Assembly: GCF_015732155.1 (NCBI RefSeq) | Contig: NZ_WIQK01000001.1 | Span: forward strand, 2,552,001 to 2,616,000 | From: Pectinatus sottacetonis | Lineage (GTDB): Bacteria > Bacillota > Negativicutes > Selenomonadales > Selenomonadaceae | Direction: 5' to 3' | Length of the DNA stretch: 64,000 nucleotides | In this document: in pieces, positions 19,955 through 52,062 of the stretch | Position numbering within the stretch: position 1 is the first letter of the stretch | Layout: every line of letters starts with the position of its first letter | Notes under the pieces: model-generated | Seen by the model: only the letters and a program-made list of their open reading frames with translations | What the model was told of the DNA's origin: nothing | Database searches by the model: none | Made by a program: the position numbers and the translations under genes

Positions 19955-20731
19955 ATGACGACTCTATTAGAAAAAACTAGGAAAATCAATCGCTTATTAC
20001 AAAAATCAGATAATGTAGAATATGATGGTATATCATGTGTGTTAAGTAATGTACTTGATGCAAATGTTTATATAGTTTCTACGACAGGAAAAATACTTGG
20101 ATATGCATTTATCGATGATTTTGAATGTGACATCATGCTGGACAAAGTGGTAAGTCAAGGACAATTTCCCAAACATTATGTCAATTGGCTATTAAAAGCT
20201 GATGAAACTTCTGCTAACATAAGATCGAAAACTGGCATGTGTGCATTTACAGAAAACACGAAATGTTTGTTCAGCGGGAAAAATACTACTGTAGTTCCAA
20301 TATACGGAATAGGTGAACGCAAGGGAACATTAATTATTGCTAAATTTGATGAAGAATTTATTGATGATGATTTACTATTGGCAGAATATGGTGCCACAGT
20401 AGTTGGAATGGAAATTCTACGTGATCATACTGAAAAAATGGAAGAAGATATGCGTAAGCAGGCCACTGTAAAAATTGCTTTGTCTACACTATCATTTTCT
20501 GAACAGGAAGCTGCTGTCAATATATTAGGCGAATTAAACGGGATGGAAGGATTGCTGGTTGCTTCAAAAATTGCTGACCGAGTTGGTATTACTCGTTCTG
20601 TTATTGTTAATGCATTACGTAAATTTGAATCAGCAGGATTAATCGAATCTAAATCCTTGGGAATGAAGGGCACATACATACGTGTTCTCAATGAGCATTT
20701 ATTGGATGAAGTCCAAAAACTAAGAAGATAA
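19955..20731 (+). CDS. codY: Global transcriptional regulator CodY
   Basis: 258-residue pleiotropic repressor that senses branched-chain amino acids and, in many species, GTP, and controls metabolism, motility and competence. The N-terminal GAF domain (about 1-155) binds isoleucine/valine. The C-terminal winged helix-turn-helix ASKIADRVGITRSVIVNALR (about 203-222), followed by GLIESKSLGMKGTYIRVLN, is nearly identical to the well-studied Firmicutes proteins. The ATG at 19955 follows GAAAGGAAC. The position between hslU and flgB is the same as in Bacillus subtilis. A terminator follows, so codY and the flagellar genes are probably separate units. Confidence 0.97.
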   Translation: MTTLLEKTRKINRLLQKSDNVEYDGISCVLSNVLDANVYIVSTTGKILGYAFIDDFECDIMLDKVVSQGQFPKHYVNWLLKADETSANIRSKTGMCAFTENTKCLFSGKNTTVVPIYGIGERKGTLIIAKFDEEFIDDDLLLAEYGATVVGMEILRDHTEKMEEDMRKQATVKIALSTLSFSEQEAAVNILGELNGMEGLLVASKIADRVGITRSVIVNALRKFESAGLIESKSLGMKGTYIRVLNEHLLDEVQKLRR

Positions 20732-20779
20732 TTATAATAAAAATATGAATATCAGTAAAAAGAATATATATTATATTAG

Positions 20780-20830
20780 AATGAGTCTGAAGATCCAGTT
20801 AAATCTTACTGGGTTTTTAGACTCATTTTG
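20780..20830 (+). terminator. Terminator after codY
   Basis: AATGAGTCT (20780-20788) pairs with AGACTCATT (20819-20827), enclosing a CCAGT/ACTGG inner stem, then a short T run. A convincing bipartite hairpin with a modest U tract. Confidence 0.65.
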
Positions 20831-20833
20831 GAT

Positions 20834-20869
20834 AATAGCAATATTTTATTTAATAAAAACATTGCTATT
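20834..20869. repeat. Near-continuous inverted repeat downstream of the codY terminator
   Basis: AATAGCAAT (20834-20842) and ATTGCTATT (20861-20869) are perfect complements, and the interior also pairs (TTTTATT with AATAAAA around one T). It makes one long AT-rich hairpin. No T tract follows, so it is probably not a terminator. Confidence 0.5.
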
Positions 20870-20926
20870 CACCTAACAATTATGGTATTTTATTTTTATA
20901 TAGTAATATTTGGGATTAATATATTA

Positions 20927-20953
20927 TTGTTTCAGTTACGATGCGAATATAAT
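20927..20953 (+). promoter_or_regulatory. Possible promoter of the flagellar operon
   Basis: TTGTTT (20927-20932) and TATAAT (20948-20953), but the spacer is only 15 bases. If used, it gives flgB an untranslated leader of about 340 bases that includes the paired elements described next. Other AT-rich -10-like sequences lie nearby. Confidence 0.3.
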
Positions 20954-21132
20954 TGCAATATTAAATTAATACAATAAAAAAAAATAAAAGGATATTTTTT
21001 TTATATAGCGAAACTATTATATACAGTGTAAAATTACCTAGTGTACTATAGCATTTTTCCTTTAATGATGAGAATATATGGTACAGTTAATACATTGTAT
21101 AGAGAATTTGTAAGGTCTATATTCAGCAAGAA

Positions 21133-21275
21133 GGATATGCCACATATGTCACTATCCCAGAATTCCTCGTGCTTAAATATCGAGGAGTATGTTAATACCG
21201 ACAAAGTCGGAGGGGAATTTAGAAGGTTTAAGAAGGTTAAATCTTTCGGATTCCTCTTCTTTATTTAAATTTTAT
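21133..21275 (+). promoter_or_regulatory. Structured leader of the flagellar operon with mutually exclusive helices
   Basis: Elements in order: GGATA (21133-21137) / TATCC (21153-21157); AATTCCTC (21161-21168); CCTCG (21165-21169) / CGAGG (21181-21185); a short hairpin CCGAC-AAA-GTCGG (21198-21210); GGGGAATT (21212-21219); the repeated AGAAGGTTTA / AGAAGGTTAA (21221-21240); GATTCCTC (21249-21256) followed by a pyrimidine/T-rich tract. GGGGAATT can pair either with the upstream AATTCCTC or with the downstream GATTCCTC, which resembles an antiterminator/terminator switch 45 bases before flgB. It matches none of the c-di-GMP riboswitch consensus sequences I know. The function is inference. Confidence 0.45.
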
Positions 21276-21301
21276 AAGGAATATCAAAGGAGAATAACAG
21301 T

Positions 21302-21727
21302 ATGTTAGGAAGTATTGTAAATGTCCCGGCAATTAATATATTGGAAATGGCAATGCATGCTTCAAATTTGCGGCAGCAGGTCATAAGCAATAACATTGCT
21401 AATGTTAATACTCCAAATTTTAAAAGGAAGGAATTAGTTTTCGAAAGTGTTTTGGCAAAAGCTTTATATCCAGAAGAAAATGAATCCAACCTGCAATTAG
21501 TTCGTACAAATAAGAAACATTTTTTTCTTAATGGCAATAACGATAAAATTTCCCTGCAGCCAATAATAAGAGATGACAATTCTACTGATATGCGTACAGA
21601 CGGCAACAATGTTGATCCCGACGTTGAAATGGCAGCACTGGCAAAAAATACACTCTATTATAATGCCTTAGCCAGAGAAATGAATATTAATTTTGTCAAC
21701 TTAAAAACTGTTATAAAAGATGAATAG
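21302..21727 (+). CDS. flgB: Flagellar proximal rod protein FlgB
   Basis: 141-residue rod protein and first gene of the flagellar operon. The N-terminal helix carries LRQQVISNNIANVNTPNFKRKELVFE, the hallmark of axial rod proteins. The C-terminal helical segment (MAALAKNTLYYNALAREMN) completes the coiled-coil interface. It is exported by the flagellar type III system without a cleaved signal. AAAGGAG lies upstream of the ATG at 21302; flgC follows after 18 bases. Confidence 0.96.
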   Translation: MLGSIVNVPAINILEMAMHASNLRQQVISNNIANVNTPNFKRKELVFESVLAKALYPEENESNLQLVRTNKKHFFLNGNNDKISLQPIIRDDNSTDMRTDGNNVDPDVEMAALAKNTLYYNALAREMNINFVNLKTVIKDE

Positions 21728-33879: not shown

Positions 33880-33898
33880 TATTAGATAATCAAATATA

Positions 33899-33936
33899 GG
33901 CGGGGAGAGTTTGTTCTCCCCTTGCCTTTTGTTCTT
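33899..33936 (+). terminator. Intra-operon hairpin after flgE, possible partial terminator
   Basis: GGGGAGA (33902-33908) pairs with TCTCCCC (33915-33921) around GTTTGT; GGC/GCC (33899-33901, 33924-33926) extends it past a TT bulge. TTTTGTTCTT follows. It could reduce read-through after the abundant hook protein or protect the flgE 3' end. Confidence 0.6.
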
Positions 33937-41106: not shown

Positions 41107-43176
41107 ATGTCCATACCTTCTTCTGCAGCAGCAGGAAATTTTATACATAAATATAGTGACATCGTCGTTGCTTTAGCCATTGTTACAATTGTCATTATGA
41201 TGATAATTCCATTACCTACTTTTTTGCTGGATTTATTGTTATGTTTAAATATAACATTAGCTCTAACTATTGTTATGATAACTATTTATAATGTTGAACC
41301 ATTGGATTTTTCTGTTTTTCCATCGCTGCTGTTAATTACAACATTGTTTCGTTTAGCATTAAATGTATCTTCAACAAGATTGATTTTACTAGACGGATAT
41401 GCCGGAGAGATAATAACTTCCTTTGGTAACTTTGTTGTTGGAGGTAATCCAGTAGTTGGGTTTATTGTTTTCGTAATTTTGATAATTATACAATTTGTCG
41501 TAATTACAAAGGGGGCAGAACGTGTTGCAGAAGTTTCTGCCCGTTTTACATTAGATGCTATGCCTGGAAAGCAGATGGCTATTGATGCAGATTTAAATCA
41601 AGGTGCAATTACTGATGCTGAAGCAAAGGCAAGACGCGAAAAAATACAGCGTGAAGCAGATTTTTATGGTGCTATGGATGGGGCCAGTAAGTTTGTCAAG
41701 GGTGATGCTATAGCGGCTATCATAATAATTATTATTAATATTTTTGGTGGTTTTATAATTGGTATGGCCCAAAGGCATCTGACTATTGCCCAATCACTAC
41801 AGCAATATACATTGTTGACCGTAGGAGAAGGATTAGTAAATCAGATACCAGCCCTGCTTATATCAACCGCTACTGGTATCATAGTAACAAGAGCTGCCTC
41901 TAATGCAAATTTAGGACGTGATTTAACTAGTCAAATATTTAGAAATCCCCGGATATTTTTCATTGTATCATCAGTTTTGTTATTTTTGGCTATAATTCCG
42001 GGTCTACCAGGAGTACCTTTTTGTATCTTAGCTTTAATTGCATTAACAATAGGTTATTTCCTGTATAAGTCGCAAAAAACAAGTTTAGCTACAAGTCAAG
42101 TTAAGCAGAAAGAAAAGGATAAAGAGGCCATTAAAAAGCCTGAAAATGTGGTATCACTTCTCCAAGTAGATCCAATGGAATTGGAAATCGGTTATAGTTT
42201 GATCCCCCTTGTTGATACAGGACAGGGTGGTGATTTACTAGAACGAATCGTAATGATTCGACGTCAATGTGCTTTAGAACTTGGTTTGGTTGTACCTACT
42301 ATAAGAATACGTGATAATATCCAGATAAAGCCTAATGCATATATAATAAAATTAAAAGGAATTGAAATAGCTAAGGGCGAATTATTACTTGACCACTATT
42401 TAGCAATGAATTCAGGAACTGTAGTAGAAGAAATAGAAGGTATTGAAACAACAGAACCAGCATTTGGATTACCTGCTATTTGGATTACAGAGGCGCAAAG
42501 AGAACAAGCAGAGCTTAATGGTTATACTGTAGTAGATGCAGTGTCGGTTTTGGCTACTCATTTGACAGAAGAAATCAAAGCACATGCTGATGAAATACTC
42601 GGACGACAAGAAACGCAGAATCTTATTGATAATATTAAAAAGACAAGTCCATCTGTGGTAGAGGAACTTATTCCCGATCTCCTTACTGTGGGAGAAATAC
42701 AAAAAGTCCTGGCTAATTTACTTCATGAACGTGTATCCATACGTGATATGGGAACAATTTTAGAAGTGTTATCGGATTATGCGCGAGTAACGAAGGATAC
42801 GGATATATTGACAGAATACGTACGACACGCTTTAGCTAGGCAGATTACTAATCAATACGTACAGAATAACACACTGCCTTGTGTTTCTCTTGATCCTGAT
42901 GTTGAGAATAAGATTGCTTCTTCTATTCAGCGAACAGATCGAGGTGCATTTATTAATCTTGATCCTAATATAACAAAAAACATAATAGTTTCCTTGAATA
43001 ATGTTTTACAAAAATTAACTGATATGGGATATCAGCCGATTGTTTTAACGGGACCGGCTGTACGTCCATATTTTAGACAATTAGTTGAACGTTCAATTTC
43101 GGGAATTATAGTATTATCTCAGGCAGAAATAGAGCCAAGTGTAGAGATTCAAATTCTTGGGGTGGTGAAATTATAA
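41107..43176 (+). CDS. flhA: Flagellar export gate protein FlhA
   Basis: 689-residue export gate protein that uses the proton motive force and docks chaperone-substrate complexes. About eight N-terminal membrane helices (20-310) include the FHIPEP-family block KGAERVAEVSARFTLDAMPGKQMAIDADL, then a cytoplasmic linker near 325-350 and a four-subdomain soluble region. AAGGAG precedes the ATG. flhF begins on the base after the stop. Confidence 0.97.
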   Translation: MSIPSSAAAGNFIHKYSDIVVALAIVTIVIMMIIPLPTFLLDLLLCLNITLALTIVMITIYNVEPLDFSVFPSLLLITTLFRLALNVSSTRLILLDGYAGEIITSFGNFVVGGNPVVGFIVFVILIIIQFVVITKGAERVAEVSARFTLDAMPGKQMAIDADLNQGAITDAEAKARREKIQREADFYGAMDGASKFVKGDAIAAIIIIIINIFGGFIIGMAQRHLTIAQSLQQYTLLTVGEGLVNQIPALLISTATGIIVTRAASNANLGRDLTSQIFRNPRIFFIVSSVLLFLAIIPGLPGVPFCILALIALTIGYFLYKSQKTSLATSQVKQKEKDKEAIKKPENVVSLLQVDPMELEIGYSLIPLVDTGQGGDLLERIVMIRRQCALELGLVVPTIRIRDNIQIKPNAYIIKLKGIEIAKGELLLDHYLAMNSGTVVEEIEGIETTEPAFGLPAIWITEAQREQAELNGYTVVDAVSVLATHLTEEIKAHADEILGRQETQNLIDNIKKTSPSVVEELIPDLLTVGEIQKVLANLLHERVSIRDMGTILEVLSDYARVTKDTDILTEYVRHALARQITNQYVQNNTLPCVSLDPDVENKIASSIQRTDRGAFINLDPNITKNIIVSLNNVLQKLTDMGYQPIVLTGPAVRPYFRQLVERSISGIIVLSQAEIEPSVEIQILGVVKL

Positions 43177-44505
43177 TTGCAGATTAAAGTATTCAAAGAA
43201 CATACCGCAAAAAAGGCAATGGACAAAGTTCGCAGGGAATTGGGTCCAGATGCTGTGATTTTACATACAAAAAAATATACTACTGGAGGAATTTTTGGCT
43301 ATGGTGGAAAAAAAATGGTTGAAATAACTGCTGCTGTTGAAGATATACCCAAACAAGAGATTTTGCCGAAAGTGATTCTTCCGGCAAAAAAGACAAATAT
43401 TTCTCACCCTGCCAATAATAAAGACAGTTTAACAGTATCACCTGAACCAGCAAAAATGGTATTGCCAAAGCAAGTGTTGCAAAACTATAAAAGTAATGGA
43501 GAAATGTCTTCGCTTAAGGATATGCCGGTTCCCATTCTCCAAACAAAAACTAAAGCAGCAAAAACTTCTAAAATAATAAAAGCTTCTAATAATATAACTG
43601 ATTTAGAAAAAAGTAATTCTGTTGAAAAAAAACAAGAAAAAAAAATACAACAGCTTCAGCAAGAACTAGCACAAATGAAAACTATGCTAAATAAAGTTTT
43701 GCAAGGACAAAACTCAACAGGAGCTTCAAAAGAAATATTATTAAGTGATGCTTTAAATGAACAGGAAATAAAAAAAACTTTAATAAATGAAATTTTAAAC
43801 ATAGATAATAATGGTGACGAAAACAAGAACCTTTTCAAAAATTCGCTACAGTCTAAAAATATTTTGTTAAAATATTTAAGGGGTTATATGAGTGATTCTG
43901 CTGGAATAGAAATGGAAAAAGGTCATGCTAAGGTCGTTGCTTTAATTGGTGCTACAGGTGTTGGCAAAACCACTACATTGGCTAAAATTGCCTCACGATT
44001 TGTGTTGGAACAGGGATTAAGAGCTGCATTAATTACTGCTGATACTTATAGAATATCTGCTGTTGATCAATTAAAGACATATTCTGATATAATTGGATTA
44101 CCACTAGAAATAGTTTATTCGCCTATTGAGTTGAAAAATATGATAGATAAACATAATGATAAACAACTTATATTGATAGATACAGCTGGAAGAAGTCAAC
44201 ATAATGATTATCAGCTTACAGAATTGCATGATTTTCTTGCAGTTAATGAAAATATAGAAAAACACTTAGTTTTAAGTGCTACTACTAAATATAAAGACAT
44301 TGTAGATATAATCAGAAAATTTTCCTTATGCGCTCCTGATAAAATCATTTTTACTAAAACAGATGAAACACGCAGTGTGGGTATGATTGTCAATTTGCTG
44401 GAAGAGTACCCGATCACTCTGTCATATTTTACTAATGGGCAAAGTGTACCGGATGATATTTTTCCGGCGAAACCAGAAAATTTAGCTGATCTTTTATTGA
44501 GGTAA
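43177..44505 (+). CDS. flhF: SRP-type GTPase FlhF
   Basis: 442-residue signal-recognition-particle GTPase that fixes flagellar position and number. The N-terminal B domain (MQIKVFKEHTAKKAMDKVRRELGPDAVILHTKK) leads to a Lys-rich coiled linker. The NG domain follows, with P-loop [23 protein letters not shown] and FTKTDETRSVG. The TTG start at 43177 directly abuts the flhA stop, with GGGGTGG upstream. It pairs with FlhG encoded next. Confidence 0.95.
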   Translation: MQIKVFKEHTAKKAMDKVRRELGPDAVILHTKKYTTGGIFGYGGKKMVEITAAVEDIPKQEILPKVILPAKKTNISHPANNKDSLTVSPEPAKMVLPKQVLQNYKSNGEMSSLKDMPVPILQTKTKAAKTSKIIKASNNITDLEKSNSVEKKQEKKIQQLQQELAQMKTMLNKVLQGQNSTGASKEILLSDALNEQEIKKTLINEILNIDNNGDENKNLFKNSLQSKNILLKYLRGYMSDSAGIEMEKGHAKVVALIGATGVGKTTTLAKIASRFVLEQGLRAALITADTYRISAVDQLKTYSDIIGLPLEIVYSPIELKNMIDKHNDKQLILIDTAGRSQHNDYQLTELHDFLAVNENIEKHLVLSATTKYKDIVDIIRKFSLCAPDKIIFTKTDETRSVGMIVNLLEEYPITLSYFTNGQSVPDDIFPAKPENLADLLLR

Positions 44506-51303: not shown

Positions 51304-52062
51304 TTGCAAACAGACAAACCTCTTTCTGCCGCCGATGTTGCTAATTTATGGAAGAATTATAAAAATAATGATAATATAAAAGCAAGGAACAGCTTGATTG
51401 AGAATTATTTACCATTGGTGAACATTGTAGTAGGACATATCGCATATAATTTACCCGCGCATATAGAGCGCGATGATTTAATAAGTAGTGGTTTTTTTGG
51501 TTTAATGGATGCAATTGCGCGATTTGATATTAGTTTGGGAATAAAATTTGAAACTTATGCTAAAAGTCGTGTAAGAGGAGCTGTTCTTGATTACCTGCGC
51601 TCTAAAGACTGGTTGTCAGTATCATTACGTAAAAAAATCAAACTTTATGAAACAATATATACAAAATTGGAAGTAAAGCTACAACGAATGCCGCAAAAAG
51701 CAGAATTGGCTGATGCCATGTCAATGAATCTTGATGACTTGCATCGTTTAGAGGTTAATATTAATGCAGCTACTCTGACACCGTTAGAGGATTATATAAG
51801 CGGTGAATATGTTCTAAATCAAGATAATAATATTGAAAAGAAAATAAACCGTGATTTTATAAAACAAAAATTAGCAGAAGCTATTGATAAACTGCCAAAG
51901 AAAGAAAAATTGGTTATAGCTTTATATTATTCTGAAGAATTGACTTTAAAAGAAATAGGATTTACATTGAAATTATCAGAAGCCCGCATAAGTCAGCTAC
52001 ATAAAAAAGCCGTTCTTAGACTTAGAGGATATTTAGCACGTTCTAAAGCAGATTTATTTTAA
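51304..52062 (+). CDS. sigD: RNA polymerase sigma-28 factor (SigD/FliA/WhiG family)
   Basis: 252-residue motility sigma factor that transcribes late genes such as flagellin. Region 2 contains RDDLISSGFFGLMDAIARFD and YAKSRVRGAVLDYLRSKDW; region 4 contains LTLKEIGFTLKLSEARISQLHKKAVLRLRGYL, a helix-turn-helix for the -35 element. The TTG start at 51304 follows AAGGAGGC. A 91-base gap before it could hold an internal promoter. No anti-sigma FlgM gene is in the window. Confidence 0.95.
   Translation: MQTDKPLSAADVANLWKNYKNNDNIKARNSLIENYLPLVNIVVGHIAYNLPAHIERDDLISSGFFGLMDAIARFDISLGIKFETYAKSRVRGAVLDYLRSKDWLSVSLRKKIKLYETIYTKLEVKLQRMPQKAELADAMSMNLDDLHRLEVNINAATLTPLEDYISGEYVLNQDNNIEKKINRDFIKQKLAEAIDKLPKKEKLVIALYYSEELTLKEIGFTLKLSEARISQLHKKAVLRLRGYLARSKADLF

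Follow-up and report, generated by a model that had tools for sequence, protein, structure and literature searches.

The flagellar genes of a Pectinatus genome (Negativicutes; 2.69 Mb) are preceded by a 20-pair hairpin with a T-rich tail, which lies directly ahead of flgB, downstream of a sigma-H-type promoter motif, and is conserved in three species of the genus. On balance, we favour reading it as a terminator-type attenuator before flgB, with partial read-through, behind a sigma-H-type promoter. The promoter, ~285 bp before flgB, would drive the flagellar genes, and RNA polymerase would then reach a hairpin of the intrinsic-terminator type whose T-rich tail lies ~40 nt upstream of the flgB start codon. 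Part of the transcripts would stop at this tail, and the rest would read through into flgB and the later genes. The hairpin might thus be a genus-level attenuator that either sets the output of the operon or lets an unnamed factor set it. It is a real hairpin behind a well-supported promoter motif, and ordinary in kind.

The leader between codY and flgB

All coordinates refer to the window, i.e., the whole 64-kb stretch of DNA that was analyzed. The gene upstream of the leader is codY (identified by Pfam); downstream, on the same strand, flgB is followed by more flagellar and chemotaxis genes. The ten proteins scanned include CodY, FlgB, a FlgE-type hook protein, FliM, FlhB, a PilZ/YcgR protein, a CheA-type kinase and a sigma-70 family factor (51304-52062). 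FlgB relatives are present in 100 of 120 genomes, and the window FlgB is nearest to those of P. brassicae, P. haikarae, P. cerevisiiphilus and P. frisingensis; the window is accordingly treated as a fifth species of the genus. The features of the locus are as follows:

20782-20825, + strand: terminator-like hairpin, 95 nt past the codY stop (-25.9 kcal/mol, tail score 3.26)
20986-21015, + strand: sigma-H-type promoter motif (AAAAGGATAT ... AGCGAAACT), matrix score 17.5, kept upstream of flgB in Negativicutes
21016-21208, + strand: species-specific 5' part of the leader, with small hairpins at 21133-21157, 21162-21188 and 21198-21210 and no evidence of function
21161-21168, + strand: AATTCCTC, the proposed upstream switch arm, of which 21162-21168 pair locally with 21182-21188
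21211-21257, + strand: conserved terminator-like hairpin of 20 pairs, whose single A.C mismatch is shared by three species
21258-21267, + strand: T-rich tail (TTCTTTATTT), kept in three species
21286-21292, + strand: AAAGGAG, likely Shine-Dalgarno sequence of flgB, read from the sequence
21302-21727, + strand: flgB, first of the flagellar run (Pfam Flg_bb_rod, 35.2 bits)

Terminator-like sites were ranked in a mismatch-tolerant scan of the + strand of 13001-64000 (51 kb). The hairpin past codY has the lowest folding energy of the sites found, and this terminator-like element would separate codY from the predicted flagellar transcript. The hairpin ahead of flgB comes second by energy (-22.7 kcal/mol, tail score 3.72), and in the same scan it shows the stable stem and directly 3' T-rich tract that mark an intrinsic terminator. 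A stricter consensus scan of 20700-21400 returned no site, missing the codY site too. The region 21209-21260 folds far better than its shuffles (z -4.31; 0/200 as good), as does the longer segment 21133-21275 delimited by the initial annotation (z -3.35; 1/200). The stem holds 3-5 G-U pairs and the tail is broken by C and A, so that termination may be weak. The claim of an attenuator-like leader before a long flagellar run is thus borne out in that a terminator-like hairpin, a T-rich tail and an upstream promoter motif are all present, and the hairpin offers one precise place to seek premature termination. Farther downstream, another terminator-like hairpin (33898-33927, -17.4 kcal/mol), whose tail lies 49 nt past the FlgE-type gene, may split the flagellar gene run.

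Conservation of the hairpin within Pectinatus

Terminator-like sites were found in three of 45 leaders scanned, namely those of the window, P. haikarae and P. cerevisiiphilus, with one further leader (L037) having a weak site of -8.3 kcal/mol. The hairpins of P. haikarae (z -2.58; 2/200 shuffles as good) and P. cerevisiiphilus (z -3.33; 0/200) also fold better than most or all of their shuffles; taken as a whole, the P. cerevisiiphilus leader folds no better than shuffles (z -0.6; 52/200). The T-rich tail, 8-9 of whose nine positions are identical between species pairs, lies at a comparable distance before the start codon: 42 nt in the window, 42 in P. cerevisiiphilus and 34 in P. haikarae, the start of the last being taken as a GTG one codon before an ATG. 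P. brassicae, which is outside the 45, has only a weak hairpin (-7.0 kcal/mol), and the mismatch-tolerant scan found no such hairpin in the P. frisingensis leader; hence, the hairpin is dispensable.

A five-species tree built from ~1.9 kb of flagellar sequence joins the window to P. brassicae (support 0.968) and places P. frisingensis together with P. haikarae and P. cerevisiiphilus (support 0.960), so the hairpin is shared across the deepest split of this tree. A single origin with later loss would be the simplest history. Identity of the window to P. haikarae and P. cerevisiiphilus is 81-83% in the hairpin as against 73-74% in flagellar DNA, and the remaining leader is, by eye, mostly unalignable. 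Each of the three sequences retains all 20 pairs, 12 of them invariant and eight varying on one side only through wobble pairing; a compensatory change on both sides was seen in none of the 20 pairs. Covariation among homologous leaders, whose absence the initial annotation had named as refuting its reading, is therefore found by half: the pairs are preserved, but no pair has changed on both sides.

When random stem substitution was simulated, the share of runs retaining all pairs was 0.4-8% when either relative was compared with the window and 2-17% between P. haikarae and P. cerevisiiphilus. The range is set by the assumed transition rate, the window figures being 6-8% if all substitutions are transitions, and as only transitions are observed, the upper ends may be the more appropriate. 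Judged from these three sequences, pair retention favours an RNA structure, short of proving it. We consider it unlikely that the hairpin is an old, functionless inverted sequence in an AT-rich spacer: it is indeed weak or was not found in two of the five species, and no pair has changed on both sides, yet its identity exceeds that of flagellar DNA across the deepest split, in a leader that otherwise hardly aligns by eye, and every stem change keeps the pairing.

A lesser but appreciable probability attaches to the possibility that the hairpin acts on translation or decay, either as an mRNA stabilizer or as a protein-binding element such as a CsrA site or a ribonuclease barrier. The hairpin ends ~30 nt before the Shine-Dalgarno sequence, a position compatible with such a role, and CsrA is encoded in all five Pectinatus genomes. 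GGA, the core of CsrA sites, is found in the apical loop region both in P. haikarae (AAAAGGATCTT) and in P. cerevisiiphilus (GGAGGATG); the loop in the window, however, is GAAGG and lacks it, and P. frisingensis has CsrA, yet no hairpin was found there. Moreover, the T-rich tail is conserved together with the stem, whereas a plain stabilizer would not need it.

When a covariance model of the hairpin (R1) was searched against 60 genomes, with stricter filters that can lose weak matches, the three flgB leaders scored 79-87 bits and all other matches below 34 bits; at that sensitivity the hairpin is thus no repeated element or regulon motif. Similarly, a pattern search for further copies in the five Pectinatus genomes gave 427 matches as against 430 in the reversed control. 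Of the weak R1 matches outside the genus, three consist of a hairpin and a T run 3' to it, i.e., are of the terminator type. The best out-of-genus matches (G012, G130 and G135) were rejected as flgB leaders, as flgB lies on another contig and the loci have no rod-protein signature, and the next-best DNA matches (L011, L012 and L013) were rejected as flgB loci for want of that signature.

The 5' part of the leader and the proposed switch

The initial annotation went further and read the leader as a two-way switch with a sensing domain, in which GGGGAATT (21212-21219) pairs either with GATTCCTC (21249-21256) downstream or with AATTCCTC (21161-21168) upstream as an antiterminator. Its sequence facts are correct: the three segments are present at these coordinates and are complementary, the pairs GGATA/TATCC, CCTCG/CGAGG and CCGAC/GTCGG are located as described, the direct repeat lies at 21221 and 21231, and the downstream pairing is strong, being part of the 20-pair hairpin with the T-rich tail 3' to it. 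It is the mutually exclusive switching that finds no support. In constrained folding without ligand, the alternative fold has an energy of -30.1 as against -40.6 kcal/mol, i.e., 10.5 kcal/mol worse, and the alternative pairing has a pair probability of ~1e-7. When prefixes were folded to mimic the growing RNA, the upstream arm was engaged in a local hairpin (21162-21168 with 21182-21188) in 33/33 prefixes. Once GGGGAATT is present and the 3' arm is still incomplete, its GGGG does pair upstream in 15/33 prefixes, though with 21155-21158; in these folding models, this would be a transient alternative that the initial annotation did not name.

The three-way arrangement itself, defined as one 8-mer with partners both upstream and downstream (G-U allowed, at least three G/C), is not rare: it is seen twice in 21133-21275, where 38/300 shuffles have at least one and 12/300 have as many, and four times in 21022-21301 (122/300 and 8/300, respectively). 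The sensing domain fares no better. With the hairpin removed, 21133-21208, 21022-21208 and 21068-21208 give fold z-scores of -1.38, -1.29 and -0.04, so the 5' part folds like shuffles, and in 199 other genomes (three candidates scored per genome), both matches that fall at flgB loci cover the hairpin part only; the 5' part had no match at the flgB locus of these genomes. By eye, no CCTC-type partner was seen upstream of the hairpin in P. haikarae or P. cerevisiiphilus.

No Rfam family out of 4227 matched the 64-kb window at its gathering score. This includes c-di-GMP-I and -II, which are also not among the eight matches with E<=10 in 20900-21500, in agreement with the initial annotation, which had seen no c-di-GMP consensus. 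The sole riboswitch among those eight weak matches is preQ1-II, at 16.9 bits where 47 are needed (E 6). Neither two folds of similar stability nor a conserved aptamer domain, as would define a riboswitch, was found in the leader. Accordingly, we judge the antiterminator-and-sensor switch improbable, and the case for an RNA switch is weaker than the initial annotation made it. As the hairpin persists in two relatives whose leaders are short and in which no arm was seen, an upstream antiterminator arm appears unneeded; a self-contained antiterminator is also unlikely, as probably just ~30-45 nt precede the hairpin in these relatives and, by eye, hold no complementary arm.

A 75-codon frame (21041-21268) runs across the hairpin and could in principle encode a leader peptide whose translation opens it; a stop-free run of this length arises in 36/2000 shuffled spacers. 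Such a translation-coupled attenuator is very improbable. The frame scores -0.159 per codon, lower than 123/123 coding pieces and not above shuffled sequence (mean -0.061, sd 0.104), and its product has no Pfam match up to E 5. Further, loop length differs by 1-2 nt among the aligned hairpins, and therefore no leader-peptide frame is conserved.

Attenuators with intrinsic terminators in 5' leaders are a general, known class, with which the Pectinatus leader shares the stem, the T-rich tail and the place between promoter and first gene; it differs from them in that no conserved antiterminator arm has been seen and no sensor identified. Judged by the available text on it, the closest case among the literature matches listed is the C. 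difficile flgB leader, which carries a c-di-GMP riboswitch plus an invertible flagellar switch and is Rho-sensitive (PMC7446863). The two are alike in being leaders ahead of flgB with control of the flagellar operon by termination, as we propose for Pectinatus. In contrast to the C. difficile leader as that text presents it, the Pectinatus leader has no c-di-GMP aptamer match and no convincing invertible repeats, its hairpin is of the intrinsic-terminator type and its promoter motif of the sigma-H type. An invertible switch around the Pectinatus leader was considered and rejected: of the inverted-repeat pairs listed (25 of 28), none was judged convincing.

A sigma-H-type promoter upstream of flgB

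SigH is best known from sporulation, and Pectinatus is not known to form spores; the promoter motif would tie motility in this genus to SigH. The control of flagellar genes in Negativicutes (e.g., Selenomonas, Pectinatus and Sporomusa) has, to our knowledge, been little studied, and neither this leader nor transcription of flgB by SigH in Negativicutes is described among the literature matches listed (for Pectinatus flagella, flgB leaders, SigH with flagellar genes and Selenomonas flagellar operons). A SigH gene scoring over the family cut-off is present in all five Pectinatus genomes. P. brassicae has, in addition, a second SigH-like gene (G001:C15:55227-55811, 303 bits), also over the cut-off.

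The motif at 20986-21015 has AGGA and GAA boxes at the SigH spacing and the second-best matrix score of the window on both strands. It places the transcript start probably at ~21020-21024, which would give a leader of ~280 nt. The motif was first spotted by eye, then captured in a hand-made pattern, and finally scored against published promoters. The hand-made pattern occurs in 47/64 flgB upstream stretches and 6.6% of shuffles. The matrix was built from 29 of the 40 SigH promoters that Table 3 of PMC7438776 gives for C. difficile; as the 11 omitted were nine scoring <=3.41 and two others (5.08 and 3.58) without an AGG or GAA core, it is biased towards that core. With it, 45/64 flgB upstream stretches score >=15, as against 7/704 shuffled or reversed stretches and 1/64 coding stretches; at >=16 the counts are 42/64, 0/704 and 0/64.

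The 64 stretches, taken as Negativicutes by kinship or title, derive from 73 flgB loci (L028-L057 and L062-L104) after removal of eight duplicates and the short L084. They include L029, with just 210 nt upstream, and L054, which ends at a contig edge, had the wrong stretch scored and was entered as a miss. In a mostly non-Negativicutes set (24 entered, one too short, L128-L131 left out, and one a Negativicutes MAG), 12/23 stretches score >=15, some of them far upstream. In the 45 loci the promoter box lies 15-127 nt from the start codon, the exception being the window with 286; the shortest leaders are doubtful, since the start-codon rule may choose starts that are too far upstream.

The promoters of C. 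difficile (PMC7438776) and Sporomusa sphaeroides (PMC12456013), as far as presented in the available texts, share with the window motif the AGGA and GAA(T) boxes and the 17-nt spacer. In the latter species, 322 SigH-type start sites with a spacer of 17-18 nt are described (PMC12456013), with which the spacer read in the window agrees. The same study finds COG N (motility) enriched; unlike what we propose for Pectinatus, its main text, in the available version, contains neither 'flagell' nor 'flgB', and flgB is likewise not in the available C. difficile SigH table (PMC7438776).

A more far-reaching proposal, which we regard as rather doubtful, is that a terminator confined to the genus, which a protein or small RNA rather than a riboswitch arm opens, gates a sigma-H-driven flagellar operon, so that motility requires both sigma-H activity and a second signal, with sigma-H control of flgB being ancestral in Negativicutes.

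The top sigma-H-type site of the window (42354-42384, score 21.1) lies inside the gene at 41107-43176 and precedes an SRP54-type GTPase gene at 43177. Next to the sigma-H motif of several Selenomonas loci there is, by eye, a TGATAAAAT-like sequence. In P. brassicae the best sigma-H score in the joined flanks is 7.6, and hence no sigma-H promoter is shown at its flgB. The P. brassicae contigs break between codY and flgB (the end of L162 and L058:1-97); the break ends resemble an insertion element (GGGGCTGTG ... CACAGCCCC), whose left end has five matches in the genome, and a CACGAATTA sequence lies 3' of the right insertion-like end.
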